DNA of 64,000 nucleotides from Glycine soja (taxonomy: Eukaryota > Streptophyta > Magnoliopsida > Fabales > Fabaceae): NCBI RefSeq assembly GCF_004193775.1, contig NC_041002.1, forward strand, positions 33,701,112 through 33,765,111, in the 5' to 3' direction. Under the pieces are notes generated by a model that did no database searches, was not told the origin of the DNA, and saw nothing but the letters and a program-made list of their open reading frames with translations. The position numbers and the translations under genes are program-made. Below, piece by piece: positions 2,202-27,187 of this stretch (its first letter is position 1; each line of letters opens with the position of its first letter).

Positions 2202-3732
2202 TGTTGGATCAAGTGGCCTCGGAATAATTAAGAAGGGGGGGGGGGTTGAATTAATTATTACTAGACCTTTACTAATTAAAAAATATACTCTTCTAAGGCT
2301 TTTACTATGGTGTTAAGAAAGTAAAGAACAAAAATATAAACTTAACCAAAAGTAAAAGCGGTAATTAAAGTGCACAACGGAAATTAAAAGAGTAGGGAAG
2401 AAGGAGACAAACACACAAGAGTTTTTATACTGGTTCGGCAACAACCCATGCCTACATCCAGTCCCCAAGCGACCTGCGGTCCTTGAGATTTCTTTTCATC
2501 CTTGTAAAAATCCTTTTACAAGAAAAGATCCACAAGGGATGTACCCTCCCTTGTTCTCTTTGAACAACCTAGTGGATGTACCCTCCACTAGAACTGATCC
2601 ACAAGAGATGTACCCTCTCTTGTTCTCAGTCAACAACCTAAGTAGATGTACCCTCTACTTGTACCACAAAGGATGTACCCTCCAATGTGTTAAGACAAAG
2701 TTCTCAGGTGGTTAAACCTTTGAAACTTTGTGAATGGGGATACAAAAGAATTCTCAGGCGGTTAGTCCTTTGAAATCTTTTGTATATGGGAAAGGGAAGA
2801 ATCAAAAGAATTCTTAGACTGTGTCGTTTTGAATTGTTTTGTCAAATTCATTTTGGCAAAGGGAGAAGGGAATGAAAAAGATGAATAGCACAAGTTTTGT
2901 TTTCAAGGTTTGGAAAACCAGAAAACTTTAGAAATCTTTTGGCAAAGGAAGAAGAAAAAGATGTTCAAAGAGATTCGGAAATCAATTGGCAAAAGTTTGT
3001 TGTCTAAAGAATGAATGTCTAAAATGCAAATCAAAGCCTTGCATTTATAGACTCTTCAAGTCTAGTCAAGAGACCATTAGAAGAGTTATAACCTTCAGAA
3101 AAACTTAAAAACCATTTGGAAAAGTTACATCTTTTGATTTTGTTCAGAAACTATCACCGGTAATCGATTACCAAATCAGTGTAATCGATTACACAAAGCT
3201 TTTTTGTGAAAGGATGTGACTCTTCACAATTAAATTTGAATTTCAACGTTCAAACACACTGGTAATCGATTACCAAATACTTGTAATCGATTACAACATT
3301 TTGAAATTAATTGGAACGTTGTAAATTCAGTTTCACAAGTTTTTTGAAAACCATTTTGCTACTGGTAATCGATTACAATAATCTGGTAATCGATTACCAG
3401 AGAGTAAAAACTCTTTGGTAAAAGGTTTTGAGAAAAATGCATGTGCTACTCAGTTTTTGAAAATACTTTTTAATACTTATCTTGATTGAGTCTTCTCTTG
3501 ATTCTTGAATCTTGATCTTGATTCTTGGAACTTGATTCTTGATTCTTGAATTCAACTTTCCTCTTGATCCTTGAAGTGTACTTGATTCAATCTTGAACTC
3601 ATTCTTTGATTCTTGAGATCATCATCTTTGTTATCATGAAGTGTTCTTGACTTTTGAGCTTTTTGCCATCTTCTTTGTTATCATCAAAACTCTTTGAATC
3701 AATCTTGATTCATCATGAAGCTTGCTTCTACA
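2202..3732 (-). mobile_element. Solo LTR, SIRE-like copia family
   Basis: This is a 1,531-bp LTR without internal sequence. It starts TGTTGGATCAAGTGGCCTC and ends CTTGCTTCTACA. It is flanked by a perfect 5-bp target duplication CAACA (2197-2201 and 3733-3737), so it was left by recombination between the two LTRs of a full element. The orientation is taken as minus, because the related full element at 13641-22844 has the same LTR polarity. It contains a poly-G tract near 2236, a TTTTATACTGGTTCGGC block shared by the other family members, a TATA-like box and a palindrome module (listed separately), and low-complexity CTTGATTCTTGAAT repeats at about 3480-3620. A close relative lies at 25495-27187. 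Confidence 0.9.
3041..3396 (-). promoter_or_regulatory. U3 palindrome module plus TATA box
   Basis: Three pairs of the 10-bp palindrome TAATCGATTA start at 3161/3182, 3263/3284 and 3366/3387; every pair is spaced 21 bp. The minus-strand TATA box CTATAAATGC is at 3041-3050, 110 bp downstream of the module in the LTR's sense direction. The palindromes are mostly extended to GGTAATCGATTACC. The position and spacing suggest a protein-bound U3 enhancer. The binding factor is unknown. Confidence 0.6.
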
Positions 3733-3737
3733 CAACA

Positions 3738-4530
3738 CTCATTATGAGATGTTTGAGCTGATTATAAGAACCTAATGTCAATGCATAGTTGCTTATGTTC
3801 AGAGGTTCATTACTTTAATAAAAACAAATTCTTATGAAAAACTTAGTTTACGTTATGCAGATGCAATACTCAGAATGTTGTGCTCCAAAAGCTATTACTT
3901 AGAATGTTGTTTCCATCTTTTCATGCACAAAACCATTTTCATGTTTTATGGAAGCTTTCATACTTTGAGACATATGATTAAATTGGTCCTAGACAAATCT
4001 TGTTATTACAAACATGATTAAGTTCAGATATGTCATTTTACAAAACAATCAAGCTTGTTATGAAAACCTTCTTATGTATGCATTCTAATGAAAGTCAATT
4101 CTGATGTTAAGAACATTCTAATGCAGATGCAGACACAATATATATGACGATAAATAACATAATGCAAAGTGGAAGAGTAGAGAAGATTCAACACAAAGAT
4201 TTTATACAAGTTTACCCTAACCTTGGGTTACATCCAATCCTCATCCTTCAAGATGAGATTTTCCACTAACACAACCAACAACCTGTTGCATTTTTACAAC
4301 TCTCAACCACTTGTTGGACTACACAACATCTCCATCACCATAGTAGCACACCTGGTCTAGGCTTGGAGATAAATTGTCTCAACCATAACACCATGGGAGA
4401 GACAATCCAAGTATTCTTCACCTCTTCACGTTGGCTTGACCCATAGAATGATTCTCCTCACTCTTGGGAAGCAAAACTCACTTAACCTCGACACCCACTT
4501 GGTCATAGGAGAGAGTACAAGTATTTCTTT
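3738..4530 (-). repeat. Old SIRE-like LTR, left part
   Basis: The stretch at 4170-4280 (GATTTTATACAAGTTTACCC, then GGGTTACATCCAATCC) is a divergent version of the TTTTATACTGGTTCGGC...CTACGTCCAGTCC block in the SIRE-like LTRs of this window, in the same polarity. The sequence stops at the gypsy insertion (TSD TCTTT at 4526-4530) and resumes at 42746, so it is one older LTR split by the big insertion. The outer ends were not resolved. No coding capacity seen. Confidence 0.5.
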
Positions 4531-5647
4531 AGTAACACCCCTATTTTCTTAAAATTATTATTTGCTAAAATTATAAATTTCTAGAAGCAAATAATAATAA
4601 CAATATTAATGTATTTTTAGACAATTATAATTAGGAAAGAAATTTATATAGGATCTAATAATAATAATAATAACATAATTAATTAGTATATACATGGAAC
4701 ACAATACTCCTTATTTCCCTACCTTTCAGCCACGTACAAAGACCCAGTGGAAAAAAAAATATTAGGAAAATTTGTTACAACATGTAAAAGGAGAGCAAAG
4801 TTATTGCAACAATGTACGAGTTGGTTGGGCATCTTTTTCTCTTCTCTTTTTCCCTTTCACGGCTAAAAAGGTAGGGAGGGGAGGGGGCGGATTTCCAGAT
4901 TCTGTTATCACAAGGGTAGTTTCTAAGAGATATTCCTCCATCTCTTCTAATATCAATTAAATATTTAAACTACTAACATTATTGTTAGTTTTTATCTTGT
5001 TATTATCTAGATAAATGGTTAAACTACTGTTATTCTCATTTCTTTAATATTAGTGATTGCTATTTTTTTACAAAAAAATTCACGTTTTTTAGTACCTAAA
5101 GTTGGTTTACCACTATGGGCATTTTTTTACGTTAGCAATTGATAAAGGTAGATACTTTATATACATTAATAATAATGTTGCTAGATAATACTAGTAAATT
5201 CCTTAAATTTCACATAATAAAATTTAAAATGTTTTTATGAATTTAAGTAATATTAACGGGTTAGCTATTAGTAAATGTTTTCACATGATTTGCTAAATTC
5301 GTCACGTTAGCTATTAATATTTTCCTATAACTATACTAAAATACAAAAAAAAAAAATTATTATTATTATTATAAGTAAAGAAAAATATTTTGTTTAAATG
5401 AATAAGGTTTTTTTTAATCAATATCAAAAGTATGCTATATGGTTGCGGTTGTATTGATCTTCCACATCAAAATACAGATTTTCTCACCACTAGTACTGAA
5501 ACTCAACTATCAAAAAACAATCTGACTATGTTGTGTGGTTGCGGGTTAATCTGATCTTCCACACTAAACAGGATATTTTCCAATATCATTAATCAATTAT
5601 TTTTATAAATATTTTATAACAAGTTAAAGTTTTTTTTTACATTTAAT
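4531..5647 (+). repeat. 5' LTR of the Tekay-like element, first part
   Basis: It aligns by eye with the 3' LTR. 4531-4740 matches 34815-35150 (TATTTTCTT...AAATTTCTAGAAG...CTACCTTTCAGCCAC). From about 4745 it matches 40371 onward (AACATGTAAAAGGAGAGCAA, then GAGATATTCCTCCATCTCTT). Many substitutions and small indels separate the copies, so the insertion is old. It ends where a copia LTR begins. Confidence 0.8.
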
Positions 5648-7267
5648 TGTTGGACAAGTGACCTCAATAACTTAAGAGGGGAGGAGTGAATTAAGTTTCA
5701 AGATTTCCACTAACAAACTTTTAACCCACTTTTCAAGTGATAGACTTAGAATGCAGAAGAAGAACAAGAAGCAATCAATTTAACAATGTTCTTTTAAACG
5801 TGCAAGGAAAAATTGATTGCAATAACATAAATGAGATAAGGGAACAGAGAAATGCAAACTCGATTTATACTGGTTCAGTCACGCCCTGTGCCTACATCCA
5901 GTCCTCAAGCAACCTACTTGAGATTTTCCACTATCTTTGTAAAAATCCTTTTTACAACTTCTAAACACCCAAGGAATCCCTTTCCCTTGTGTTTAGGAAA
6001 CTCACAATTCAAGAGACAATCAGTCTCTTGATTACAATTGACTTTTTGAGAAGAACATAAAGATTTCTCTCCTATATAGTGGATAATACAATTTGAAGTT
6101 CCTGGATGAACTCTCAATAGATTTGCAAGTGTTTGCCCAAGAGTTGTTGAGAGAGTATTTGACAATGAAGTTCTCTTGGAATATCTCTCTCTTGCTTTTT
6201 GAAGTCAGACACACACACATATATATAGGCCCTTCGTGCCTTTACAAAATGATTTGAAGATATGTGTCTTTTCAAAAAGATTTTTCTAAAATTTTTCACT
6301 GGTAATCAATTACAGGTTTCTGGTAATCGATTACACAGTTCTATTTTGAAGGTTCATGACTTTTGAATTTGAATTTCAAGAGTTCTGTTGCTGATAATCG
6401 ATTACAAACATCTGGTAATCGATTACAGGTTCAAAATTCAAATTCAAAACCCTTTTTAACAACTATTTTTCAAAATTGTCTTTTGGTAATCGATTACACT
6501 GCCTAGTAATCGATTACCAGTGCCTTGGATGTCTTTGAAACACTTTGTTTTGAGGCAAGGCTTGATCTTTAGTTAATCTTGAAGCAAGACTTTGTTTGTT
6601 GAAGCAACCTTGTATTAATCTTGAAGCAATGTTTCTCCTTTGAAGCAACCTTGTTTGATTCTACTTTGGCATCATCAAAATCATGTATTCATACATTCAC
6701 ATTCTCCCCCTTTTGATGATTACAATCATTATCAAGTGAATTCTTTTCGATATCATCAAAACCTGCATGATTTACATTCTCCCCCTTTTTGATGATGACA
6801 ACCATCTGTAGGTTAGGAGCAACAACAACAAAAAAATATATTTGTCTGTATAGTTTACTGCCCCTTGATTTTGTAATGATTGCTTATATGAGACAATTGA
6901 AGATTTCATAGATTTCATATATAAAAAGTTGTCTCATAAAGAATAGATAATTTCCCTTACTATTATATCTTTTATATATTTCTCCCCCTTTGTCAACATC
7001 AAAAATAAATCATGAGTAGAGAGAAGAAAACCATTCAGTAGTTTATAATGAATTAAAAGAGTAGAGAATGTCATACCATACAAGTATCGTTTCATGGCCT
7101 AAAAGAAAATGTTACCGCTTGTTGCAATATATGAGAGTTAAGTGATACCAAAAGGCATTAAAACAAATTATTTTGCACCCATAAAAATACATATCTAGTA
7201 TAAAACAATCAAAATATATAATAATAAAAAAACAATCATCAAAAGTTATCAATAATCAACATAACCT
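5648..7267 (-). mobile_element. Truncated SIRE-like copia element (3' LTR plus 3' internal end)
   Basis: The LTR runs from TGTTGGACAAGTGACCTC (5648) to about 6700, ending TACATTCACA. It is followed by CTCCCCCTTTTGATGATTAC, which on the minus strand is a polypurine tract (AAAAGGGGGAGA), so this is the 3' LTR of a minus-strand copia element. A further internal segment, with more CTCCCCC tracts near 6780 and 6982, runs to about 7267, where gypsy LTR sequence resumes. About 945 bp of the gypsy LTR present in the other copy (about 41230-42175) is missing here. A deletion therefore removed the rest of the copia element together with neighbouring gypsy LTR, and no target duplication can be checked. 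Confidence 0.75.
6219..6516 (-). promoter_or_regulatory. U3 palindrome module plus TATA box
   Basis: Palindrome cores start at 6303/6324, 6395/6416 and 6487/6507 (spacings 21, 21 and 20). The first core is TAATCAATTA, one change from the palindrome; the rest are perfect. The minus-strand TATA box (CCTATATATATG, about 6219-6228) is 75 bp downstream in sense. It has the same layout as the modules in the other SIRE-like LTRs, with different spacer sequences. Confidence 0.6.
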
Positions 7268-7811
7268 TCTATGGGACAAACTATTGGTATGGAGGATTCA
7301 CATACTCCTATGTACCACTTCATTGCTCCAGCTAAGGATGACCCTTATGTTCATATAGCCCCTGTGGCTTTTGTACATGACTTTATGATTCTGCACGTAC
7401 CACTTCTTTGTTATCCTTATGCTCCAATTTCGTATGAGGGATATCGTCCTCTTATTCCTGAAGTGCATTTTCATGACCCTCCTCCGTCTCCCATAGCTTC
7501 AGAGACTATTATTTAGCTTCTTATTACAATACCTTCACCAGATCGTTGGTCGGATATGCCAAAGGGTTGGCTGAGCTTATCACCATCTGTAACTGTTACT
7601 GTGGGACAACCTCATTAGGGTTAGTCTTCTGGATGATCTACCTAGATTGAAGCTACCGATTGCTTCTCTTTTTGTGACCTAGATAGATGAGAGTGTTTAG
7701 TTGTATAGTTACTGCTCTAATAGAGGCCCTTTTCTTTTTGGATGTTTATATGAGGGTGGGTAGCTAGGACTTGTGATATATAATTTATATTTAAAATTAC
7801 TCTTTTGGATA
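7268..7811 (+). repeat. 5' LTR of the Tekay-like element, second part with ORF-like block
   Basis: It matches 42176-42558 of the 3' LTR, starting CTATGGGACA. An open frame at 7271-7516 (81 codons) parallels the 109-codon frame at 42183-42512 in the other LTR: both begin MGQ, then GMED, TPMY, and share the CYPYAPI block. This copy has about 190 extra bases (about 7450-7620) relative to the other LTR. The match ends at CTCTTTTGGAT (7811), where the sequence jumps into reverse transcriptase, so the LTR end and primer site are lost. Confidence 0.7.
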
Positions 7812-8017
7812 AATTTATTATAGTTTTCATAGATGATATTTTGATTTATTCCAAAAACTCAGAAGAGCATGAAGAACATTTGCGAATGGTGTTGCAAATT
7901 TTGAAAGGAAGACAATTGTACGCAAAGTTATCAAAATGTGAGTTTTGGTTGGAACAAGTAAAATTTTTGGGACATGTTATATCTCAAGGTGGAGTTCAAG
8001 TGGATCTGGCCAAAGTA
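7812..8017 (+). pseudogene. Ty3/gypsy reverse transcriptase, central part
   Basis: The frame reads [17 protein letters not shown], then [18 protein letters not shown] and VKFLGHVIS. This is the palm domain of gypsy RT with the catalytic F/YxDD motif (FIDD) and the following primer-grip region. Everything N-terminal (gag, protease, RT fingers) was deleted at the LTR/RT junction. After QVDLAKV the frame is interrupted by CACTA-1 and continues at 11461. The first ATG-like position is an artefact of the deletion junction, so this is a fragment and not a gene. Confidence 0.9.
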
Positions 8018-8730
8018 CACTACTAGAAAAAATGTTTTTAATGTTGGTTCTTTAGCATATTCCATGACGGTTTGAAAATCATCTTTGAAGCTGCCGTTGT
8101 GAAAAGTGTTAATTTTCCACGTCGATTTTTGAATTGTATTAGAATTTTGATTTCTATGTTGGTTCTTTTAGAAACTGTCTTAGAATGTATTTTTTGTTTT
8201 AAAAAAATTGAAATTTCTAAGACGGTTCTTTCAAAAAACCATCTTAGAAAGTCTTTAGTTTCTAAGACGATTTTCTGAAAGAATCATCTTAGAAAATAGA
8301 CTTTTTAAGACGGTTTTCCATAGAATCATCTTAAAAAGTATTATTTTAAAGACTAACAATAGGCCATATGCAATTATTCTTATTAATGAATCTTAGATTT
8401 AATTTAAAAAATCTTCCAAATTTGTGCATAAGTGAAAAGACTTCATTCCAATAATTATGTTAACATTTAAAAAATTACATGCCATTTTTTTTACCAATAT
8501 GTAAAGTATAGTATTCCTTCTATGCAATATTTATATAGTAACTTAGCTTCTATTTTAGTGACAAAGTTATTTGAATTTTGAAATGCCATGAAAATTAAAA
8601 TCCTCATTTCACAAATTAATCACAAAGTCAAATTTCCAAGATAGTCAAACATGGATTCTTAAAGGTTTGTCTTTAATATAGCCAAATGGACCATGAGAGT
8701 CTTGATATTCTGGAAGAATGAATATAGTAC

Positions 8731-8860
8731 CTTTCCAGTTGCAAATGTCAGTGTGTTATTCCCAAATCCGGCATCAGCTATTGCTTTCCTTATATTTTCC
8801 ATGAGGAACAAATGTGCAGAATCATATTAATGTTAAAATCAAGATAGAAAACACAACTTA

Positions 8861-8940
<80 letters not shown>

Positions 8941-9048
8941 AAAAATGATAGCAAGTACCATGTCACGATTGGTGTAAAATGAAGTAGCTAAGCCAATTGA
9001 TCTTGCACGCCCTAACCTTCCAATCTGGTGTACATAATCTTCCTTGGT
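8731..9048 (-). pseudogene. Captured DEAD-box RNA helicase fragment (two exons)
   Basis: On the minus strand, exon 1 (9048-8959, 30 codons) reads TKEDYVHQIGRLGRARSIG, then LATSFYTNRDM. This is the helicase C-terminal domain around motif VI (canonical YVHRIGRTGRAG, here with R to Q, T to L and G to R changes). It has a good acceptor (pyrimidine-rich ...CAATTATAG) and a GT donor right after GACATG. Exon 2 (about 8813-8731) continues with MENIRKAIADAG and ends LTFATGK before a GTACTA donor; its acceptor AG is lost. The intron between them holds a TC/TA microsatellite. The motif VI arginine changes would inactivate a helicase. This is transposon cargo, not a working gene. Confidence 0.8.
8864..8938. 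repeat. (TC)n-(TA)n compound microsatellite
   Basis: About 17 TC units followed by about 20 TA units. It sits in the former intron of the captured helicase fragment in CACTA-1. Confidence 0.97.
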
Positions 9049-9482
9049 CTATAATTGAGGCAACAACCAGCATACACAAATATTTCACAAGAATGCATTA
9101 GTGCATTGAATTATCAATAGGTAAATCATTGAAGCAAGAAGTTGATCAACCAATGTCAATTTCTGATTTCTATTAAAAGAACTCACCAATTAGGTGAATA
9201 AGGACAAACCTTAGGTGTAATTCTGTAGGTGTTTTTGGTTCTGTTTTTCAATCAAAATTTGAGTTTTACTTTGTTAATCCGCATAATAAAGATTTCATTA
9301 AATGTCAATATACTGAATATAGATTATATAGGTAAAAATTTAATTCTATTTGATAGCAACGCCGCAGAATAATGTGAAATTGTATCAAGGTTTTGTAGTC
9401 TTGGTTTTTACTTCTTTAGCTATTAAAAAGGATGCCTTAAGACTAAAATAACAAAAAGATTAATGCATAAAATGATACTTAC

Positions 9483-12747: not shown

Positions 12748-12769
12748 CACTACAAGAAAAATGACATAT

Positions 12770-13640: not shown

Positions 13641-14731
13641 TGTTAGACAAGTGGCCTCAGATATCTTAAGAAGGGGGGGTTGAATTAAGATATTCGAAAC
13701 TGTTTCCCCTAATTAAAAATCTATTTCACTTTTTACTCAAGTTATGAATTCCCTTAATGACAATCTTCTTAAATATTAATTCAAATGAAACAATTTTAAT
13801 ATGAATATAAAGCAATAATAAATAAAGGAGATTAAGGGAAGAGAAAATGCAAACTCAGTTTTATACTGGTTCGGCCACACCCTTGTGCCTACGTCCAGTC
13901 CCCAAGCAACCCGCTTGAGAGTTCCACTATCTTGTAAATTCCTTTTACAAGTTCTAAACACACAAGGACAATCCTTCCTTTGTGTTTAGAGATCCTTTAC
14001 AACAAGAGACTCACAGTCTCTTAATCCCTTAGAGAATGAGAAGAAGAAGAAGAACAAATCTCTCTAGAAAGAGATGGATTTTACAGATTGAGCACTCAAA
14101 TAATTCCTTAATGAATTGCAATTGAATTGGTCAAGGAATTCTTAAGAGGATAAAATGAATTTGCTCTTTGTGAGGATAAACACTTTGTTGTTCTGAAAAT
14201 CTCTGAGCAATTTTGTGTTTAAGTCACATATATATAGACCATTGGTGGTCATGAATAAAGCCTTTGAAAAGTTGTGACTCTTGAAATTATTTTTCTGAAA
14301 ATCCTGTCTGGTAATCGATTACAGTAATTGTGTAATCGATTACAGCTTTTAAAATTTGAATTAAAACGTTTACTAACTGCTGGTAATCGATTACCAAAAT
14401 TGTGTAATCGATTACACAGTCTAAAATTTCGAATTCAAATTTTTGTAGCTGTTATAAAACGTATTTGGCCACTGGTAATCGATTACATCCTCTGGTAATC
14501 GATTACCAGAGAGTAAAACCTTTGAGAAACACTTTTTAATTTAAATCACTTGGCCAAACCTTTGCTAATTCAATTAGGAATTCCCTTCCTAATATTCTAG
14601 TGATCATCTTGATGTTGTGACTTGTAATCTTGAAGTATTGTCTTGAATTTTAATCTTGAAAAGCCCATTTGCATCAATTGCAACACATCATCATGATCAT
14701 CATCAAAACATCAAAGCCAATTGCATCTACA
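13641..14731 (-). repeat. 3' LTR of the SIRE-like copia element
   Basis: 1,091 bp, from TGTTAGACAAGTGGCCTC to CCAATTGCATCTACA as read on the + strand. It carries a 7-G tract, the TTTTATACTGGTTCGGC block (about 13859), a TATA box and the palindrome module. It differs from the other LTR by 10 substitutions. Confidence 0.95.
14228..14505 (-). promoter_or_regulatory. U3 palindrome module plus TATA box (3' LTR)
   Basis: Cores TAATCGATTA start at 14312/14333, 14384/14405 and 14476/14496 (spacings 21, 21 and 20). All six are perfect palindromes. The TATA box CTATATATATG (14227-14237, minus) lies 75 bp downstream in sense. Confidence 0.65.
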
Positions 14732-14745
14732 ATCTCCCCCTTTTT
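14732..14745 (-). other. Polypurine tract of the SIRE-like copia element
   Basis: On the minus strand, AAAAAGGGGGAGAT directly precedes the 3' LTR (TGTAGATGC...). This is the plus-strand primer for reverse transcription and fixes the element's direction. Confidence 0.9.
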
Positions 14746-15183
14746 GATGATGACAATACAATACCTGAAATCAAGATTCAAGCAAGCAACAAACAATTGT
14801 ATATAGATAAAATGTGCATGCGTTTACTCCCCCTATATTTCGGAATACATGATCACTTGATTTCTAAGTTTGTTAAGCAACCTTTTCTCCCCCTTTGGCA
14901 ACATCAAAAAGCCAAAGAACTCGGAAATCAACACAGATATAACAATGGAGTAGCAAGATATAAATATCAGAGTATTAAACACAATAAGCCAAACTCACAA
15001 ACAAGAAATAATCAAACCAGAATTCAAATAACATAAAATGTCAACAACCACAAAATATCCAAGACTGAAATTTAAAAACCAAAAGATAAATAAGCAAAGT
15101 ACTTAGCATAATAATGTAAATTCTAAGAAACTAAAAGCCAAAATACACGGCTTATAAAAAGACATATAGTCAGAAACTAAAAT
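14746..15183 (-). other. 3' untranslated internal region of the copia element
   Basis: AT-rich sequence between the extra ORF and the polypurine tract, with further CTCCCCC tracts at about 14827 and 14888 that could act as secondary polypurine sites. A + frame at 14656-15036 is antisense and not supported as a gene. Confidence 0.6.
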
Positions 15184-16298
15184 CTAAGAAGATGGAGGTG
15201 GTGGAGGAAGATCAAAACTCTGACGAATGTATCCGACATCCTCTTCAAGCTGTGTAAGGCGAATGTCCATACCGGCAAAGCGTGAATCTAACGAGTCGAA
15301 GCGGTCACCAACATAAGAACGAAGACCCCGTAATTCGGAGAGGACTTCATTCATGAGTGCGGAATCTTCACGTTGAGGGGGAGGTGAAGGAGTACGTTCA
15401 TCTTGAGGAGGGAGTGCATCCTTCTTCAGCCATTGTCCATTCCGATCTTTACGATACCCAAAGGAGGTCACTGCACCAGCACCAATTGCAAAGGAACGCT
15501 TGACTTGAACAAAGGGTTCATCATCAAGCGGAATTTGAAAATGACGCAAAAATAGAGTAATCAAATGTGGATAAGGAAGAGGTGCATTGGCCCGTAATGC
15601 CTTATGCATTCGGTACCGAACCAAATGGGCCCAGTCGATCTGACGACCGGTAAGAAAAGACCACATAAGAATCAAATCCTCCTCAGAGGCTTGTGCTAAA
15701 TTTGAAGACCGGAGAAGCAAAATTCTAACAATGATATAATGCATGATGCGATTATCAAAAGTTAATGACCCGGCCAGCAATCTACCGGTCATTTCAGCTT
15801 GATCATTGCAGACCATGCGACGAGCATCATGACTTGAATAATGGTGCCCTCAAAAGGTGCACCTTGACTGGGTAAATGAGTCAAAGAAAAGAAAAGTGAC
15901 TGATCAATGACCATAGAAGTACCATGCACCTCAGACAAAATAATACCATCCTGAATTTTTAAATTGCAGTAGAAGACCTTAACAAGTTCAGGATAATATG
16001 GCAATTTTAATGACATGAAATCAACAAGACCAGAATTTTGAAACACTTGATAGCAATCAAACGTTTCATCATTAAAGAACTCTACGTCTAGGTACTTAGG
16101 ATCTAAGATTATTCTAGAAGAAAACTGAGAAAGGTACCGTAGACGTTGATCATCGGATGAAAACAGTGTTGATGATCTTGGAGATGACAAAGAAGGAGGA
16201 ATAGGTGTTGTGGGTGCTCCGGATGGGCCGTGATGGCGATGGGCAGCAGCGGTAGCGGTGGAGGATGATCCCTTTCTCTTCTTTGATGGATCTGCCAT
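15184..16298 (-). pseudogene. Extra ORF (putative plant transposon protein type) in env position, frameshifted
   Basis: The reading begins at ATG 16298 with MADPSKKRKGSS, a basic nuclear-localisation-like patch in a Ser/Ala-rich N terminus. It then runs LRYLSQFSSRIILDPKYLD, VDFMSLKLPYYPELVKVFYC and DQSLFFSLTHLPSQG. A single-base loss near 15829-15832 shifts the frame: the first part ends at 15789, and the second (from about 15830 to 15184) continues MVCNDQAEMTGRLLAG, LLLRSSNLAQASEEDLILMW and QIDWAHLVRYRMHKALR. The C terminus (residues about 300-365) is a likely coiled coil (VLSELRGLRSYVGDRFDSLD), ending in a Pro/Ser tail. The middle resembles the domain annotated in legumes as putative plant transposon protein (Pfam PF20167, from memory). 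It has no signal peptide or transmembrane helix, so it is unlikely to be a true envelope. Intact length would be about 370 residues. Confidence 0.75.
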
Positions 16299-16377
16299 TT
16301 GATGAAGTTTTTCTGGATTTTGATCGATGGAAGTGAAAGAGGAGTGAAAAAGAGGAAGATTGGGCTTTACGGGACAT
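16150..16377 (-). other. Upstream ORF overlapping the extra ORF start
   Basis: An ATG at 16377 opens a 75-codon frame that overlaps the extra ORF's ATG (16298) out of frame. It is the first ATG downstream of the internal TATA box. It could dampen translation of the extra ORF, or it could mark a decayed true start. The composition (Ser- and basic-rich) gives no functional clue. Confidence 0.35.
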
Positions 16378-16478
16378 GATTTGGTGAAGAATTGAGTGAG
16401 AATCGAAGGTTTGAAGTTCTAGGTATGGAGGAAAACGTGGAGGATGCTTTGGCTGCGCAGCAGCTCTGATTTCGTGAG

Positions 16479-16631
16479 TATTTATAGAAGATGACGCATT
16501 GTAATCGATTACAGGTATTGGTAATCGATTACAGGCCCAATAAGCCTTCTGGTAATCGATTACAGGATGTTGTAATCGATTATAGGCTGCCTGTTCATGT
16601 GTAATCGATTACACTGGATGGTAATCGATTA
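16479..16631 (-). promoter_or_regulatory. Internal palindrome module and TATA box upstream of the extra ORF
   Basis: Cores start at 16502/16522, 16553/16573 and 16602/16622, all spaced exactly 20 bp. The minus-strand TATAAATA box is at 16479-16486, only 15 bp downstream of the module and about 180 nt upstream of the extra ORF's ATG (16298). The arrangement copies the LTR promoters but is more compact (about 50 bp between pairs, against 72-122 in the LTRs). It suggests the extra ORF is made from its own mRNA. This is inferred from sequence only. Confidence 0.6.
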
Positions 16632-16872
16632 CCAGAGCCTATCCTAGGCTAGTTTCTTAAGAGAATATCTATATTTATGCTCAAATACATCCTATATGAC
16701 TAATTTTCACTACTAATACACTAAACTCAATCATTCAATTATTATATACACAAGAAATCATAAATTATATCATAAAAACAAGAATTTAAACAAGATCAAA
16801 CAAAACCATCTATAATCAAAAGGTAAGAGTAAATCAACCAATCAATCAACCATTCAATCAACCAATCAATCC
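16632..16872 (-). other. Spacer between pol stop and internal promoter module
   Basis: About 240 bp of AT-rich sequence between the pol stop and the palindrome module. Short CAATCAACCAAT-like repeats lie at about 16830-16870. No ORF. Confidence 0.5.
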
Positions 16873-19800
16873 CTATTCTTCTAAATCTCTTACATCTAAG
16901 AGACCTAATTCTCTTCTAATAGAGAAGAACACTTCCTTGGGGAGAGGTTTAGTGAAAATATCAGCAAGTTGATTCTTAGTATCAACAAATTCTAATACAC
17001 AATCTCCCTTTAGGACATGATCTCTAAGAAAGTGGTGTCTAATCTCTATATGTTTAGTTCTAGAGTGTTGAACTGGGTTTTTGGATAGATTTATGGCACT
17101 AGTATTATCACACTTAATAGGTATGCGATCAAGAATGATGCCATAGTCAGATAATTGTTGCTTCATCCATAAAATTTGTGCACAACAACTACCGGCAGAG
17201 ATATACTCCGCTTCAGCAGTAGATAAAGCAACACTGTTTTGTTTCTTACTATGCCATGAGACAAAAGCCGATCCAATAAATTGACAAGTTCCACTTGTAC
17301 TTTTTCTATCAGTTTTAGATCCGGCAAAATCAGAATCAGAATATCCTATTAAGTTACATGTTGAATTCTTAGGATACCATAATCCTAAATTGATTGTTCC
17401 TAATAGATATCTCATGATTCTCTTTACTGCACTTAAATGTGATTGTTTGGGGTTGGATTGAAACCTAGCACACATGCATACACTAAACATAATATCAGGT
17501 CTACTAGCAGATAAATAAAGAAGAGATCCGATCATACCTCGATATTGTTTTATGTCTATAGACTGACCAGATTCATCTTTATCTAAGTAACAATTAGTGC
17601 TCATCGGTGTAGACATGTGTTTTGCACTATCCATCCCAAATCTTTTGATCAATTCCTTGCAGTATTTGGATTGATTGATGAATATACCTTCTTGAGTTTG
17701 CTTGATTTGTAATCCCAGAAAGTACTTTAGTTCTCCCATCATTGACATTTCAAATTCACTTTGCATATCAAGGGAAAACTCCTTGCACAATGAATCATTA
17801 GTGGATCCAAAAATTATATCATCAACATATATTTGAACCAACAAAATATCATTATGCTTTCTCTTTATGAACAATGTGGTATCCACTTTACCTCTGGAGA
17901 AATCTTTTTCTAGAAGAAAATTGCTTAATCGTTCATACCATGCCCTAGGGGCTTGTTTCAAACCATAAAGAGCCTTTTGTAATTTATAAACATGGTTTGG
18001 TTTATCAGGAATTTCAAAACCAGGGGGTTGTTCAACATATACCTCTTCTTGAATTAAGCCATTTAGAAAGGCACTCTTAACATCCATTTGATAAAGTTTA
18101 AAATTCATTATGGATGCATATGCCAATAGCATTCTAATGGCTTCTAATCTTGCAACATGAGCATATGTTTCTTCATAGTCTATTCCTTCTTCTTGATTAT
18201 ACCCTTTTGCTACTAACCTGGCTTTATTTCTAATAATTATACCATGTTCATCTAATTTATTTCTAAAAACCCATTTTGTTCCTATGATAGGATAATTTTC
18301 AGGTTTTTCTACTAATTTCCACACATTATTTCTTTTAAATTGGTTTAATTCTTCTTGCATGGCAATGATCCAATTATCATCTATTATGGCTTCTTTTATA
18401 TTTTTAGGTTCAATCATGGATACAAAAGCCATATTATTGCATAAATCTTTAAGAGAGTGTCTAGTTGTTACCCCTTTTGAGATATCACCAATAATGTTGT
18501 CGAGGGGATGATCTCTTGAAGTTTTCCATTCTCTTGGGAGTGCATCATTGGATTTGACTTCTTCTGGAGGATCTTCATTGTTTCCTTTGTCATTTCCTTT
18601 GGAATCTTGTTCATGAATGTTCATATGTTCTAAAGAATCTGCAATGTCATCTAGCATATTCTTTCTTGACAATATAGCATTAGATTCATCAAAGGTAACA
18701 TGAATGGATTCCTCTATATTCATAGTTCTCTTATTATATATTCTATATGCTTTGCTTTGTAATGAATATCCAAGAAAAATGCCTTCATCAGATTTTGCAT
18801 CGAATTTTCCTAGATTATCTTTACCATTATTAAGTACAAAGCACTTGCAACCAAAAACATGTAGATGAGAAATATTAGGTTTTCTACCATTAAATAACTC
18901 ATATGGGGTTTTCTTTAAAATAGGTCTTATCAAGGCCCTATTCATGATGTAACATGCAGTATTGACAGCTTCAGCCCAAAAATACTTTGGAAGAGAAGTA
19001 TCATTTAATAAAGTTCTTGCAATTTCTTCCAATGACCTATTTTTCCTCTCAACAACTCCATTTTGTTGAGGGGTTCTTGGTGCAGAAAAATTATGTTCAA
19101 TACCATGTTCATCACAAAATAATTCAAAATCTTTATTTTCAAATTCACCCCCATGATCACTTCTAATGGATGCAATCTTGAGATTTTTCTTGTTTTGTAT
19201 GACTTTAGCAAGTTTCCTAAATGCTTGGAATGAATCACTTTTATGTGTAATAAATAGTGTCCAAGTATATCTAGAGAAATCATCAACTATAACTAGAGCA
19301 TAGTAATTTCCTCCAAAACTCATGGTTCTAGATGGACCAAATAGATCCATATGCAATAACTGTAATGGTCGAGTGGTTGAAACAACATTTTTAGGTTTGA
19401 ATGAGACTCTTGTTTGTTTGCCCTTTTGACATGCATCACATAGTTTATCTTTTTCAAATTTCAATTTAGGCAAACCAACTACTAAATCTTTTGAAATTAA
19501 CTTATTTAAGTGATCCATGTTTATGTGAGCAATTCTTTTATGCCATAACCATGGATCATCATCTTTACTAAGAAAGCAATGATTGTTTTCTTGTTTTATG
19601 CTTAAGTCTATCATGTAAACATTATTGACTCTATGTCCTACATGCTTTATATTAATGTCATGCTTATGTTCTATAAGACATTTCTGAGAATCAAATGATA
19701 CTAGATAGCCTTTGTCACATAGTTGACTAACGCTAAGCAGGTTGTGCTTAAGGCCTTCAACAAGTAGAACATTTTCGATGGAGTTTGAAGAATTTGTACC

Positions 19801-19965
19801 TATTTTACCCACTCCAAGAATTCTACCTTTGTTGTTCTCACCATATGTTACATGCCCGCTTTTCTTTGGAGATATATATGTAAAATTTGATGCATCTCCA
19901 GTCATATGTTTTGAGCATCCGCTATCTATGTACCACTTCTTTCTCAAAGACACCTGCATAATCAA
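16873..19965 (-). CDS. Copia polyprotein: protease, integrase, reverse transcriptase, RNase H
   Basis: About 1,030 codons without a stop. Protease: [14 protein letters not shown], with the catalytic DSG at residues 14-16. The GAG-pre-integrase zinc region ([15 protein letters not shown]...CDACQKGKQ) is near 137-190. The integrase core has LLHMDLFG (D about 205), IRSDHGGEF (D about 270) and [12 protein letters not shown] (E about 308). RT runs from about 545 ([16 protein letters not shown]) with [12 protein letters not shown] and the catalytic YVDD at about 711-714. RNase H follows with [16 protein letters not shown] and the terminal ADIFTKPLP. All catalytic residues look present. The first ATG is at 19959, two bases after the gag TGA, and pol is in the -1 frame relative to gag. 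Expression would need frameshifting or reinitiation, or an A was lost from the run of five A at the junction. Confidence 0.93.
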
Positions 19966-21698
19966 GTTTTTGACTTAGGTACCCAAATTTTATTGGGTCC
20001 TTCCATGTTAGTATAAACTGAGGATCCTTTTGGGACCCATATCATTTTAATGTTACTGTAATTTTTCTTGAAGTAGCAAGTTGATATGCCATGTCCTCTT
20101 CTTCCACAGTAAAAACAAGTGATAGAATTAGAATTACATTTTTGTGTGGAAGTGGAAAAGTTTTTATGAACCTTTTGTTGTTTTTCAGATTTATACCCTA
20201 GTCCATTTTTATTAGACACATATCTTTGTTTACTTAATATAACATCTAAATTATTTCTACTATATGAAAATTTTGCAAGTGAATTTTTCAACTCTTTAAT
20301 TTCTTTTACATATTTATCACAACAACTACAAGAATCTGTTATTTTCTTGTCATTAATAGTGGAGATATTAACTTTTTCATTTGTTTTAGAGATTGAGACT
20401 TCATTTCTAAGAAGATCTAATTCTTTGTTTAATTTCGAAATTTCATTTTCTAAATTTGAAATTGTTTTCTTTGATGATGAAACTAATTTTGCAAGTTTAA
20501 TTGATTCTTTATGCACATCATCAAATGCATCTTGCAATTCATCAAAAGAAATAGATAAGTTGTTTGAAGATGTTACCTCTTCATCACTTTCGTAACTTTT
20601 GGCCATAAGGCAGAGATTTATCTCTTCATTTTCAGAATCTTCAGAGGATTCCAAATCATTTTCATCCCATGTGATGTATGCTTTCTTCAGTTTCTTTTCA
20701 CTATGATTTTTCTTTTCAGATTTTTCCATCTTTTTCTTGAAGATGGGACAATCAACCCTCAGATGTCCAGGTTGATTGCATTCAAAGCATTTTACAATAG
20801 AGGATGAATTTTCTATCCTTCTCTTTGATTTAAAATTTGGTCGCCTCTGATTTCCTCTTACTTTAAGAAACTTGTTGAATCTTTTTACAAAGAGACTTAG
20901 ATCATCATCATCATCATCTGGATCATTATCCTGATCACTTTCTTCTTGAATTGAGGATGATGCTTTAAGAGCAATTCCTTTCTTTTTCTTGTCATTTTCT
21001 TCATTTTGGTGCAATCTCAATAGTTCCATCTCGTGTTCCTACAACTTACCAAATAAAGTGGCAAGAGACATGTTAGACAAATCTCTTGATTCAGAAATGG
21101 CCGTTACTTTGGGTTTCCATTCTCTACTTAAACATCTTAACACCTTGTTTATAAGATCCTCATTTTGAAATTCTTTGCCTAAGGCTGCTAGATAATTTAC
21201 TATATGTGTAAATCTCTTTTGCATACTCTGAATATTTTCATTTGCATTCATTCTAAATAATTCATACTCATGAGTTAGTGCATTTATCCTAGATCTTTTA
21301 ACATCTGTTCTTCCTTCATGTGTTAATCGAAGAGTGTCCCACATTTCCCTAGCACTCTTACAATTTGAAACCCTGAAATATTCATCCATTCCTAGGGCAG
21401 ATGTTATTATGTTTTTGGCTTTTAAGTTGTATTGTACTCGTTTTCTATCCTCTTCAGACCATCTATCTCTAGGTTTTTCTATGGTTATGCTTTCACTTGA
21501 TGAACTACCATCTATTGAAACTCTTTCTACTGTGGTGGGTATATAAGGCCCTATTTCTATGGCTTCCTAGATATTTAGATCTATTGCCTCGATAAAAATT
21601 TGCATTCGGGTTTTCTAGTAGTGGTAACCCTCTCCATTAAAGATTGGAGGTCTATTGATAGAATTCCCTTCCGGAAATAAGGAATTTGCTGAGGCCAT
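19962..21698 (-). pseudogene. Copia gag with three nonsense codons
   Basis: The frame opens at ATG 21698 (MASANSLFPEG...) and runs to TGA at 19962. It is broken by in-frame TAG at codons 28 (21617-21615), 44 (21569-21567) and 220 (21041-21039). The open parts are 21389-21039 (retrotransposon gag core: MDEYFRVSNCKSAREMWDTL, EYELFRM, ENIQSMQKRFTHIVNYL) and 21029-19962. The latter has an acidic stretch, two CCHC zinc knuckles (CFECNQPGHLRVDC; CFYCGRRGHGISTC) and a Lys-rich coiled region between them. At codons 28 and 44 the family has Trp, and at 220 a Gln is expected, so all three fit C-to-T decay. No full-length gag can be made without readthrough. Confidence 0.9.
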
Positions 21699-21736
21699 CT
21701 TTTTCTTGAAGTTTCTAAACTTTATACAAGAATGAA

Positions 21737-21748
21737 GCTCTGATACCA
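21737..21748 (-). other. Primer-binding site, initiator Met tRNA
   Basis: On the minus strand TGGTATCAGAGC, one base from the 5' LTR end, matches the 3' end of plant initiator-Met tRNA and is the start of minus-strand synthesis. Confidence 0.95.
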
Positions 21749-21750
21749 CT

Positions 21751-22844
21751 TGTTAGACAAGTGGCCTCAGATATCTTAAGAAGGGGGGGGGGTTGAATTA
21801 AGATATTCGAAACTGTTTCCCCTAATTAAAAATCTATTTCACTTTTTACTCAAGTTATGAATTCCCTTAATGACAATCTTCTTAAATATTAATTCAAATG
21901 AAACAATTTGAATATGAATATAAAGCAATAATAAATAAAGGAGATTAAGGAAAGAGAAAATGCAAACTCAGTTTTATACTGGTTCGGCCACACCCTTGTG
22001 CCTATGTCCAGTCCTCAAGCAACCCGCTTGAGAGTTCCACTATCTTGTAAATTCCTTTTACAAGTTCTAAACACACAAGGACAATCCTTCCTTTTTGTTT
22101 AGAGATCCTTTACAACAAGAGACTCACAGTCTCTTAATCCCTTAGAGAATGAGAAGAAGAAGAAGAACAAATCTCTCTAGAAAGAGATGGATTTTACAGA
22201 TTGAGCACTCAAATAATTCCTTAATGAATTGCAATTGAATTGGCCAAGGAATTCTTAAGAGGATAAAATGAATTTGCTCTTTGAGAGGATAAACACTTTG
22301 TTGTTCTGAAAATCTCTGAGCAATTTTGTGTTTAAGTCACATATATATAGACCATTGGTGGTCATGAATAAAGCCTTTGAAAAGTTGTGACTCTTGAAAT
22401 TATTTTTCTGAAAATCCTGTCTGGTAATCGATTACAGTAATTGTGTAATCAATTACAGCTTTTAAAATTTGAATTAAAACGTTTACTAACTGCTGGTAAT
22501 CGATTACCAAAATTGTGTAATCCATTACACAGTCTAAAATTTCGAATTCAAATTTTTGTAGCTGTTATAAAACGTATTTGGCCACTGGTAATCGATTACA
22601 TCCTCTGGTAATCGATTACCAGAGAGTAAAACCTTTGCGAAACACTTTTTAATTTAAATCACTTGGCCAAACCTTTGCTAATTCAATTAGGAATTCCCTT
22701 CCTAATATTCTAGTGATCATCTTGATGTTGTGACTTGTAATCTTGAAGTATTGTCTTGAATTTTAATCTTGAAAAGCCCATTTGCATCAATTGCAACACA
22801 TCATCATGATCATCATCAAAACATCAAAGCCAATTGCATCTACA
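21751..22844 (-). repeat. 5' LTR of the SIRE-like copia element
   Basis: 1,094 bp with a 10-G tract. It is otherwise nearly identical to the 13641-14731 copy. As the element reads on the minus strand, this is the promoter-bearing 5' LTR. Confidence 0.95.
22341..22618 (-). promoter_or_regulatory. U3 palindrome module plus TATA box (5' LTR)
   Basis: Cores start at 22425/22446, 22497/22518 and 22589/22609 (spacings 21, 21 and 20). Two cores have one mutation each (TAATCAATTA at 22446, TAATCCATTA at 22518) while the sister LTR keeps both perfect. The TATA box is at 22341-22350, 75 bp downstream in sense. This would be the promoter for the genomic RNA. Confidence 0.65.
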
Positions 22845-22849
22845 GGAGG

Positions 22850-25494
22850 TTGTGGAGTAATGATATCGGCATGGAGGATGCACCATTGCCTGTCACCGTA
22901 GCGAGGAAGTGAAATTTAGAATCCTGGCAGGCTCCGACTTGAGGTAAGGATTGACAAGAAGAAGTGCAGATTGTCGTCGTTGCCACTAACCTCCCTTAAT
23001 TACATTTACATCTTTTTAATTACAAAATTACATTATCACTTACACGACTCTTATTTTTATATTATTATTACTCATAAAAAAATTATATTATTACTTTTAA
23101 GTGTACTTACTAGCCTATTAGATGTGTAGTCTGTACATAAAAATAATACATAATATTTTTTTAAAACAATGAGCATCAACATTATGTAAGAATAACTTAA
23201 AAAGCAAGAGAAGTGTAATATTTCAATGAGAAGGGTGTAAGTGTATTTAGGACTAATTCACTTCTCACTTCTCTTTAATCCTTTTATTCTTTTTAATCAA
23301 AATTCTAACTAAACTATTAAAGTGTGAATTTTCTTCATCAATAAAAACTAATATAATTAAAAATTAAAGAAAAAAAAGATTATATCTATAAGATTAATTA
23401 ATTTGTTTATATCAATCCTTCAACTATAATGTGCAGCGGCAATGGTTGGTAGACGCGTGTTATGATATAAACCAAGAAGGAACTAGCTCTGATTTGCTCC
23501 TCAGGTACTCTCTCTTTCTCTCCGAGTTGATTCCAACTTCAAGCTACTCTGCTTTTCACTTCATCATTGTATTCCTTTATATCCTCATTACTCTTCCCTC
23601 ACCCCTTTGCAACTCTGCACGCTTTTGTTTTTCAGCTTCTCCAGCTTCGAATTTTGGTGTTGGTTTTTATTCCTAACAATTAATTCGATTCTGTGAACTG
23701 AAACCTATAGGTTGCCAATGGTTTATGGTATAGAGTGTTTATCTATGTAATGATTTGCATGTTTTTTTTTGGTTTATGATGTGAAAGGATTAAAGAATAC
23801 ACAATTGAAAATTTAGCGCGACATTGTTTTTGTAACTTGTTGCTGCTCTTCATTTATCAGTGCATCGGCAATAATTTTTGGCTATGGTTTCTGCTTTGAA
23901 TTTGTATGTATGTATGTTCTTTAACATAATTCATTTAAGGCAAAAATTCTATATCAAATTTATTTTCAATGAACAGAACAATCAGAGTACTATTATAATG
24001 TTTTATTTTACTTTTCATTCTTTATCAAATTTATTTTCAATGGTTTATTTAGGAGCCTCCTTGTTCACTGGCCGATAGTAGATGACTCAACCTTTATGCT
24101 TTCTTTTATGTCACTTGTTTCACCAGTTCAGCAAGCCTCTGGTATGTAATACATGAAACAATTATAGTTATCTTACACTTATGTTTCAATTTTTGTGCAC
24201 TTGAACTACAATGATCTGAGTATAGTCTATTGCCATGTAGTAAACTATTGACTGTTATTTTAGTTTAGTGCTGGGGGGAATATACTGTAAAGAGTAAACT
24301 ATTCAGTATTCACTCAGTATAGTCTTGATATAGATGGTTATATGAAAGACACACAAAAAAGGGTGTGTCTGATTTTAGGATATTTTTTGCTTTCGTATGT
24401 GATGCTACTTGGATGACTCCTGCGTCTTGTTCTTTTGATATATTTGAAGTTTTTGAACAAATGGGAAATGGTAGTTAAGAGAAAACTATAATCTTATAGT
24501 AAGTAAATAAAAAAAATTAAAAGAAGTGCTCATTCTCTAGAAGATCTGATAGATCACTATCCCTTTCCACAATTTTCTTCCTTTCTCTCCTCCCCCCCAG
24601 CCCTTATCTCAATCCACCTTTGCTTATCTCCAGAATATTTTCCTCTTCTACTGAGCTGCTATCTAGCCATTTTATTACATTCCAATTCTTTGTCATCAAC
24701 TGCTTCTTTTGGCATGCCATCTTTGACAAGATTCCCTTGCTTCCCTTTCTGGCCTTTTTCATATCCACTTGCATATTGGGTTTTCTCTCTTTTTATAGAC
24801 TTGTACTATGGGAGGCCTATGACAATGTAAGCTCTTCATTTGAGTTCAAGATGTCAATCTTTGCAGCTTGAAATTTAGTTAAGCCATACCATTTTTGGGG
24901 GAGTTAAACCCAACACCAGTTTGATAACTCTGGAACTCTAATGAATTCTTTATTGAGAATTATTAAACAATGGGTGAAAGGCTTTACAAAATGTTATATA
25001 TCACTTCTTTATATGTTTTTCCCCTCTTTCTCACCTATGCTTTTAGTTGTCAAGGACCAACTATGCTTCTTAAGCTGTTAGATTTCTTAGATTTAAGTTC
25101 ATGATTGATTTTATAGCACTAATATTGATTTATAGAGTTCCTTTGTGCTCCCCTTATATTATTTGGCTTTTCTTGTTAGTTACATAGTTGTAAACCTGGA
25201 CTAGTGGAGGAATCAATATGACGAATAGTTAGGTTAACTATTTGATTGTTGGTCTAGTCTGGCTAAAAATTCCAACTTAAGAAGAAAAAGAAAAAAGGAA
25301 AAAAATAACAAAATGCTAAATATCCTAGTTTAATTCTAACAAATACCCCTGGTTTTCCCAGTTTAACACATTTAAGCACATGTTTGGGTCTCTGTTTCCC
25401 AACCCTTGAACATGTATTTGTAAAAGTAACTCCTTGGTTACTTTAGGACTCAACGTACATTTAGGTGTGCTTACTGGTTTTCCTAGCAAACGTT
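22850..25494. other. CACTA-2 interior, no recognisable gene
   Basis: AT-rich with a few exon-like islands. 23432-23510 (acceptor-like GTGCAG, frame RQWLVDACYDINQEGTSSDL, then a GTACTC donor) and about 24055-24140 (ending before GTATGT) look like captured exons, but I cannot assign them. A 50-bp block near 23912 repeats one at 13237. Otherwise nothing is seen. Confidence 0.35.
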
Positions 25495-27187
25495 TGTTGG
25501 ATCGAGTGGCCTCAGAATAATTAAGAAGGGGGGGGGGGTTGAATTAATTATTCCTAAACCTTTACTAATTAAAAAATTACTCTTTTAAGGCTTTTACTGA
25601 ATTGTTAAGAGAATGAGGAGTAGAAGAGAAACTTAATAGAGAGTAAAAGTGAAAATTAAATGCACAGCGGAAAGTAAAAGAGTAGGGAAGAAGGAAACAA
25701 ACACACAAGAGTTTTTATACTGGTTCGGCAACAACCCGTGCCAACATCAAGTCCCCAAGCGACCTGCGATCCTTGAGATTTCTTTCAACCTTGTAAAAAT
25801 CCTTTTACAAGCAAAGATCCACAAGGGATGTACCCTCCCTTGTTCTCTTTGAACCTAGTGGATGTACCCTCCACTAGAATTGATCCACAAGAGATGTACC
25901 CTCTCTTGTTCTCAGTCAAACCCAAGTAGATGTACCCTCTACTTGTACCACAAAGGATGTACCCTCCATTGTGTTAAGATAAAGATCTCAGGCGGTTAAA
26001 CCTTTGGTACTTTGTGAATGGGGATACAAAAGAATTCTCAGGCGGTTAGTCCTTTGAACACTTTTGTATAAGGGAATGGGAAGAATCAGAAGAATTCTCA
26101 GACTGTGTCGTTTTGAATTCTTTGACAAGGGAGAAGGGAGACACAAAAGAATTCAGGCGGTTAGTCCTTTGTTCTTTTGGAAAAGGGAGAAGAGAGACAC
26201 AAAAAGAATTCAGGCGGTTAGTCCTTGGCGAATTCTTTTTGGCAAAGAGAGAAGAGAATGAAAAGATGAATAGCACAAGTTTTCAAGGTTTGGAAAATGA
26301 GAAAACTTTAGAAAGCTTTTGGTACAAAGAAGAAGTTCAAAGAGGTTCAAGGCTTGTAAAGGATTGTATGAATATGTGTTCAAGATGATTTGAATGAATT
26401 TTTAATAAAATGCAAAACAAAGCCTTGCTTTTATAGACTCTTCATGTCTGGTCAAGAAGACCATTTAGAAGAGTTATAACTTTTAGAAAAACTTAAAACC
26501 AATTTGAAAAATTCAAAAACCTTTTGAAGAGTTATATCTTTTGATTTTTTTCAGAAACAGTCACTAGTAATCGATTACCAAATTAGTGTAATCGATTACA
26601 CAAAGCTTTTAAGTGAAAGGATGTGACTCTTCACTTTTGAATTTGAATTTCAACGTTCAAGGGCACTGGTAATCGATTACCAAAACATTGTAATCGATTA
26701 GAGCTTTTTGAAAATAATTGGAACGTTGTAAATTCAATTTGAAAACTTTTTCAAACTCATTTTGCTACTAGTAATCGATTACAACAATATGGTAATCGAT
26801 TACCAGAGAGTAAAAACTCTTTGGTAAAGGTTTTGTCAAAAACTCATGTGCTATTCAATGTTTTGAAAAAACTTTTTAATACTTATCTTAATTGAGTCTT
26901 TTCTTCATTCTTGAATCTTGAGTCTTGAATCTTGATCTTGATTCTTGAGATCTTGAATCTTGAATCTTGATTCTTGATTCTAGGCTTTCTTCTTGAGTCT
27001 TGAATTCTTCTTGATTCTTGAACTCTTGGCTTGTTCTTGATTCACTTGAGATGTTCTTTGATTCACTTGAGTTGTTCTTTGATCTTTGAGCTTTTTGTTC
27101 ATCACCTTTGTCATCATCTTTTGTTGTCATCATTGTTATAATCAAAACACCTTTGAATCACATTCACCATGAAGCCTTGCTTCTACA
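25495..27187 (-). mobile_element. Solo LTR, SIRE-like copia family (second copy)
   Basis: 1,693 bp, TGTTGGATCGAGTGGCCTC to GCCTTGCTTCTACA, flanked by a perfect duplication ACGTT (25490-25494 and 27188-27192). It is closely related to the solo LTR at 2202-3732. Both share the GATGTACCCTCC repeats (25826-25970 here), the AGGCGGTTAGTCCTTTG repeats (26040-26225) and CTTGATTCTTGAAT runs (26890-27000). It lies inside CACTA-2. Short frames in it are low-complexity and not genes. Confidence 0.9.
26427..26802 (-). promoter_or_regulatory. U3 palindrome module plus TATA box
   Basis: Cores start at 26568/26589, 26670/26691 and 26772/26793, all spaced exactly 21 bp. The TATA box CTATAAAAGC is at 26427-26436 on the minus strand, 131 bp downstream in sense. 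Confidence 0.6.

Follow-up and report, generated by a model that had tools for sequence, protein, structure and literature searches.

Paired palindromic sites upstream of TATA boxes in LTRs and in a candidate internal promoter of a Sirevirus-type retrotransposon of Glycine soja

The stretch of DNA analyzed here, a window of 64,000 nucleotides of Glycine soja (NCBI RefSeq assembly GCF_004193775.1, contig NC_041002.1, positions 33,701,112 to 33,765,111), contains six modules of the palindromic core TAATCGATTA. Modules 1, 2, 3, 5, and 6 lie in long terminal repeats (LTRs) or LTR-like DNA, while module 4 is internal to a Ty1/copia retrotransposon of the Sirevirus type, here called element B, where it occupies the linker between pol and an "env-like" gene matching PF20167. 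The modules may be regarded as arrays near promoters in which a dyad site of 12 bp, GTAATCGATTAC, is repeated. A nuclear factor with sequence specificity would most likely occupy every copy as a dimer, and the members of a pair, being two helical turns apart, would present two such dimers on one face of the DNA. The LTR array would then serve the TATA box for the genomic RNA in this Sirevirus-type lineage, and the linker array a second TATA box driving a separate mRNA for the PF20167 protein. We consider this explanation probable as a whole. From the sequence, spacing, and positions of the sites, their conservation, the geometry of TATA box and start codon, and the sharing of the array with Ty3/gypsy elements, we infer that the sites are bound by protein, that transcription also starts internally, and that both promoters answer to the same factor.

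All 33 exact cores found in a scan of the window fall into the six modules, which hold 36 cores in total, the other three (at 6303, 22446, and 22518) carrying one mismatch. Allowing up to one mismatch yields 38 matches in the window, compared to 2.9 expected and a maximum of 7 in 100 shuffles. The original prediction had listed 33 perfect cores out of 36, start-to-start distances of 20 or 21 bp in all 18 pairs, and a minus-strand TATA box after every module, and all three statements were reproduced on recounting, with the TATA boxes located 15 to 132 bp downstream in minus-strand sense (Table 1). The accompanying claim that no cores exist outside the modules is correct for exact cores but not for those with one mismatch, which also occur at 5590 and 13354, and the rule of exactly three pairs per module holds in the window but not in general, as arrays elsewhere consist of 3 to 12 cores. 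Because modules 3 and 5 represent the two LTR copies of element B, which are 98.8% identical, the six modules announced before amount to five distinct ones. The LTR-like remnant around module 2 is akin to the element B LTR, with ~81% identity between 5821-6032 and 13817-14025, and contains the sequence AGGGGGAGAATG, resembling a polypurine tract (PPT), at 6786 and 6711.

Table 1. Features of the window. Positions are counted from the first nucleotide of the window; distances to TATA boxes are given in sense direction. TSD, target-site duplication.
Feature	Position	Strand	Remarks
Solo LTR with module 1, 1,531 bp	2202..3732	-	TG/CA ends; 5-bp TSD TGTTG; polyC tract near 3' end
Palindrome module 1	3161..3396	-	Six perfect cores, three 21-bp pairs; TATAAATG 111 bp downstream
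Palindrome module 2	6303..6516	-	Inside LTR-like remnant of indefinite ends; TATATATA 75 bp downstream
Element B, Sirevirus-type Ty1/copia, 9,204 bp	13641..22844	-	TSD CCTCC; LTRs 13641-14731 and 21751-22844
Palindrome module 3	14312..14505	-	3' LTR of element B; TATATATA 75 bp downstream
PF20167 ("env-like") gene	15187..16298	-	Start codon at 16298 (MADPSKKRKG..); frame change near 15840 breaks element B copy
TATA box TATAAATA of candidate internal promoter	16479..16486	-	15 bp after last core of module 4
Palindrome module 4	16502..16631	-	Linker between pol and env-like gene; six perfect cores; sense spacing 20/29/20/31/20
pol open reading frame of element B	16873..19974	-	Integrase and copia-type reverse transcriptase (Pfam rve, RVT_2)
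Palindrome module 5	22425..22618	-	5' LTR of element B; counterpart of module 3 with two imperfect cores; TATA box 75 bp downstream
Solo LTR with module 6, 1,693 bp	25495..27187	-	TSD AACGT
Palindrome module 6	26568..26802	-	Six perfect cores; TATAAAAG 132 bp downstream

In the 1.01-Gb genome, for which the reversed word was used as control throughout, the word GGTAATCGATTACC is present in 32,352 copies, compared to four of the control. The genome-wide spacing histogram that had been proposed as a check shows a huge peak at start-to-start distances of 20-21 bp (41,822 exact-core pairs; control 0). Further pairs are found at 22-48 bp (5,431; control 4), with 28-32 bp in 40 of the 50 distinct places among those listed, at 49-53 bp (16,381; control 0), at 54-68 bp (1,538; control 35), and at 69-73 bp (27,719; control 1), which corresponds to a density of ~20,900 pairs per bp of spacing at 20-21 bp versus 103 at 54-68 bp. 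The counts at 49-53 and 69-73 bp together exceed the 36,719 pairs (control 36) obtained for the entire range of 49-78 bp, indicating that a start site was presumably counted once per search and that the counts are not subtractable; distances above ~40 bp also contain sums across neighboring pairs. A sample of 56 arrays with 372 cores was then compared, an array being defined by three or more cores with one mismatch allowed, and both LTRs of one element being counted as two arrays. Loci L001-L004 were left out of every count because their places are already covered by L005 and L006. The pairs in 22 family representatives are spaced by 21 bp in 40 cases, by 20 bp in 27, by 19 bp in two, and by 22 and 23 bp in one each.

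The motif derived from 270 distinct 26-mers reads GTAATCGATTAC, followed by G or T and then mostly T. The flanks of these sites are symmetric within the same palindrome (0.57 versus 0.45 expected at position 2, and 0.54 versus 0.39 at position 3), whereas their complementarity to the partner palindrome reaches merely 0.21-0.26 at positions 2-3 among 114 distinct pairs, in which partner flanks are not complementary past position 1. These values fit independent dyad sites and not one long hairpin, and the idea that a pair constitutes a single hairpin was rejected for this reason. CpG transitions account for 36 of the 50 one-mismatch cores in the arrays, as expected for methylated silent copies. 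The longer gaps of the sample favor 29-31, 50-53, 70-73, and 80-83 bp. For the 53 inter-pair gaps of the 22 family representatives, which are related by descent and include loci (L031-L050) drawn entirely from the 22-48 bp list, periodicity is strongest at 10.2 bp, with a mean cosine of 0.66 that is reached in none of 3,002 jittered sets, compared to 0.31 at a period of 10.5 bp; if only gap lengths unique per similarity group are used (n = 35), the mean cosine is 0.53 (0 of 3,000 jittered sets).

After masking of the cores, the flanks of the 56 arrays separate into five groups of 31, 16, 7, 1, and 1 members, between which blastn shows no similarity at E 1e-6. Ty3/gypsy LTRs house one of these groups, and the 20-21 bp peak can therefore not be ascribed to one recent LTR; neither of the two histogram outcomes named beforehand as contradicting the original prediction, a missing peak or one explained by a single recent LTR, was observed. 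The group concerned comprises seven arrays in long LTRs of the Ty3/gypsy type, assigned by domains for L006 and L007 and by LTR similarity alone for the other five. With 98.7% identity across 3,433 columns, L006 and L007 look like the LTR pair of a single element, which encodes Retrotrans_gag, RVT_1, and integrase H2C2/SH3_Tf2-1 domains between them and shows no PF20167 match. An enhancer restricted to SIRE elements was rejected because Ty3/gypsy LTRs contain the same array, and a location of all modules in LTRs because module 4 is internal to element B. The predicted occurrence in several LTR families is supported, but these are not only SIRE-like ones, and SIRE1-1 is not among the 13 elements with comparable repeats (RM boxes) in the accessible part of PMC2829016. 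Likewise, the predicted conserved U3 enhancer is retained as far as promoter-proximal U3 arrays, two-turn pairs, and a dimer-type symmetry are concerned, but does not cover module 4 in the internal linker. The two arrays whose flanks are unlike all others (L025 and L026) keep pairs of 19-21 bp and mostly gaps of 51-53 bp. The long Ty3/gypsy LTRs also contain an open reading frame of 143 amino acids (MAAQLIRDRVEMECLEG..) ~130 bp after the array (L006:4347-4775; also in L007, L043, and L045). The C-terminal half of its product is very acidic and includes a VIEV(T/S)SSEED stretch, which we take to resemble a SUMO-interacting motif.

As judged from its sequence, element B conforms to the Sirevirus type in every hallmark checked, namely the PPT, the LTR junction, the polyC signal, and a copia-type pol. 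Its integrase precedes the reverse transcriptase (rve, then RVT_2), and the Sirevirus PPT octamer AGGGGGAG occurs in three copies (14741, 14834, and 14894), with AGGGGGAG-AT-TG at the start of the 3' LTR. The junction at the 5' LTR, CA-AGTGG-TATCAGAGC at 21745, follows the Sirevirus pattern CA / A(T or G)TGG / TATCAGAGC, and the polyC integrase signal is present near the 3' ends of the LTRs as C10 at 21792 and C7 at 13679. The LTRs differ by a Kimura two-parameter (K2P) divergence of 0.0092.

Linker arrays like module 4 form the similarity group of 16 (the window, L009, L031-L042, L048, and L049); L009 was taken from the GGTAATCGATTACC list and fourteen came from the 22-48 bp list, the presence of a TATA box being no criterion for any of the 16. 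A TATA box is located exactly 15 bp after the last core in 12 of them and at 17 bp in L036. The start codon follows the TATA box at a distance of 188 bp in nine of these 12 (189 bp in L034, 198 bp in L048, unread in L039) and of 186 bp in L036. PF20167 follows just downstream of the array in 15 of the 16 cases, the stretch of L048 lacking a match though its first residues read MAEPSKKRKG. A comparison of 13 linker modules preselected for a TATA box near a core, confined to the 67 of 78 pairs with less than 80% identity, yielded 92.9% identity for the 12-bp sites, compared to 53.8% for the spacers, 60.5% for the leader, and 65.3% for the start of the open reading frame. The module, the TATA box, and the fixed start-codon geometry make this linker a strong candidate for an internal promoter. 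Such a promoter for ENV had already been proposed, and the accessible text of PMC2829016 places RM boxes in this region, with no internal promoter conclusively identified.

Several points weigh against the proposed paired arrays at two promoters. Since the loci were chosen for exact cores and all except the window come from C1:0.18-10.7 Mb, the identity of the cores is inflated, and the sampled copies share descent, with both LTRs of an element entering as two arrays. Among the linker arrays, the TATA box is found at 39 bp in L037, and none was found in L009 and L041, while the TATA identity of 91.0% in the same 67 pairs is partly due to the choice of modules with a TATA box near a core. Furthermore, a six-turn gap (61 bp) is unfavored genome-wide and families with gaps of 55-60 bp occur, so that a strict helical-face rule fails past the pairs; together with the shared descent and the list-picked loci, this led us to reject the notion that every inter-pair gap keeps to one helical face. 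The pair spacing of 20-21 bp is the sole firm spacing rule. A family on C1 with a core gap drifting from ~55 to 60 bp (e.g., 8936046, 15388193, and 17274177) departs from the favored spacing.

Intact PF20167 genes for 378 amino acids are present at other genome sites. The closest named protein to the env-like product (P0002, 94%) is from Glycine soja, and PF20167 is the sole Pfam match above the cut-off in five homologs, for which DUF1985 and DUF287 were unlisted in a scan to E 10, the HMMER filters dropping most very weak matches. While membrane spans usually show Kyte-Doolittle means of ~1.6, the best 19-residue means in two intact copies are 1.01 and 1.03, unlike those of a retroviral envelope span. 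No useful match was obtained with the protein sequence and profile against the PDB, and none at E 0.001 in a viral fold library or by Foldseek with the first model. The predicted fold appears to be best matched by VANC21, and the product apparently driven by the second TATA box would be a nuclear protein with a modeled fold like that of a plant anti-silencing factor. The best-scoring PF20167 family, taken from the 150 that were scored out of 12,269 candidates, was sampled at four loci (L056-L059); these genes have a basic start resembling a nuclear localization signal (MAPRKLASKRSRKDK), no such palindromes within ~1.7 kb upstream, and perhaps belong to Athila-type elements.

A view on known systems shows that RM boxes of Sireviruses (Bousios et al., 2010; PMC2829016) are, in the accessible part of that study, palindromic high-copy LTR repeats upstream of the TATA box with further linker copies upstream of ENV, an arrangement also seen here; at least eight copies per element are part of the definition, and element B has six per LTR plus six in the linker. 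However, their core is CGG-CCG in all cases except Tnd-1, compared to AATCGATT in our arrays, and they are absent from the other Ty1/copia elements compared there, whereas our array extends to a Ty3/gypsy family. The tobacco Sirevirus Tnd-1 (RM ACAATCGATTGT, eight LTR copies in Table 3 of the same source) has the AATCGATT core in common with our sites, but its outer bases are ACA..TGT instead of GTA..TAC, and unlike element B it is described without an ENV gene, linker copies, or a detected TATA motif. The VANC proteins of VANDAL transposons are likewise encoded by transposable elements that repeat a short motif in their own non-coding regions, but VANC carries DUF1985/DUF287 and resides in Mutator-like DNA transposons, and its motif YAGTATTAY is non-palindromic, unlike GTAATCGATTAC (accessible parts of PMC5735166 and PMC10398659); a VANC-like anti-silencing activity is a candidate function of the PF20167 protein. 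Soybean SIRE1, likewise a Ty1/copia element of Glycine, carries an additional gene downstream of pol, whereas in element B the two genes are separated by non-coding linker DNA that has an array and a TATA box of its own. An extra open reading frame of sunflower Athila also matches PF20167 (related to PF03078), but Athila belongs to Ty3/gypsy, and a palindrome array is unmentioned in the available text of PMC11728184.

As to the binding factor, a dimeric plant transcription factor, e.g., of the homeodomain or HD-Zip III-like type, which several LTR lineages recruited and which is used at both promoters, comes close to an even chance and is placed slightly ahead of the PF20167 protein. The occurrence of one array in Ty1/copia and Ty3/gypsy LTRs and the similar core of Tnd-1 argue for it, and the half-sites equal those of the HD-Zip III site GTAAT[G/C]ATTAC in the part of PMC3911943 available; however, that site has one central base and ours two (GTAAT-CG-ATTAC), and no factor for TAATCGATTA emerged from the literature retrieved with the core string, as judged by title. 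Alternatively, a VANC-like nuclear dimer of PF20167 may bind the palindromes, open or demethylate the element, and activate both promoters including its own, with the gypsy copies as hitch-hikers. This is a real possibility, if a somewhat less likely one, and is consistent with the array in the gene's own promoter, the basic start and probable coiled coil, the predicted DNA-binding fold, and, by analogy, the dense repeats known for VANC21, but it conflicts with Ty3/gypsy carriers lacking PF20167, with the ENV-less Tnd-1, and with the absence of cores from the four loci at which the best-scoring PF20167 family was sampled. Only tentatively would we extend it to the view that the "envelope-like" gene specifies no envelope but an anti-silencing factor of the VANC type, which binds DNA, is produced under the control of a separate internal promoter, and has the palindromes as its sites at both promoters, i.e., to a self-contained Ty1/copia counter-silencing switch exploited by site-only Ty3/gypsy elements.

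The remaining explanations dispense with a binding factor or with any present function. Palindromes acting mainly via RNA hairpins and small RNAs have been argued for LTRs of maize Sireviruses, where they are small-RNA hotspots according to the accessible part of PMC5311732, but the missing flank complementarity of the partners, the lack of a loop in single palindromes, and the exact TATA and start-codon distances, which would be left unexplained, render this very unlikely here. Least likely of all is one duplicated unit carried along with the LTRs by descent: many arrays are indeed akin, the largest similarity group comprising 31 of 56, but linker spacers have diverged to ~54% identity with sites still at 93%, a figure partly due to the choice of loci, the pair spacing is common to five groups without detectable flank similarity, and the module recurs at a second position within a single element.

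That Sirevirus LTRs and the region preceding ENV contain palindromic repeats is already known from the accessible text of PMC2829016. New are the soybean array, its pair spacing and TATA geometry, its sharing with Ty3/gypsy elements, and the putatively VANC-like protein; a literature search covering mostly titles and abstract starts, with few subscription papers, showed among the papers listed no report of the array, of this pair and TATA geometry, of Ty3/gypsy sharing, or of a VANC-like fold in LTR retrotransposons. The role of plant "env-like" genes is an old open question, for which the locus offers a precise testable promoter, consisting of the array, a TATA box at +15, and a start codon 188 bp further on. 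The predicted structure gives a reason to place the env-like product in the nucleus on DNA instead of in a membrane, two retroelement superfamilies would be using one control site, and the abundant word GGTAATCGATTACC would become a readable target for chromatin data.

Elsewhere in the window, a non-LTR (LINE-type) element with DUF4283, endonuclease, RVT_1, and zf-RVT domains is located at 35404-40241 on the plus strand, and two repeats of ~909 bp without palindromes (27291-28197 and 31772-32680), which are 96.8% identical, are probably the LTRs of another element.
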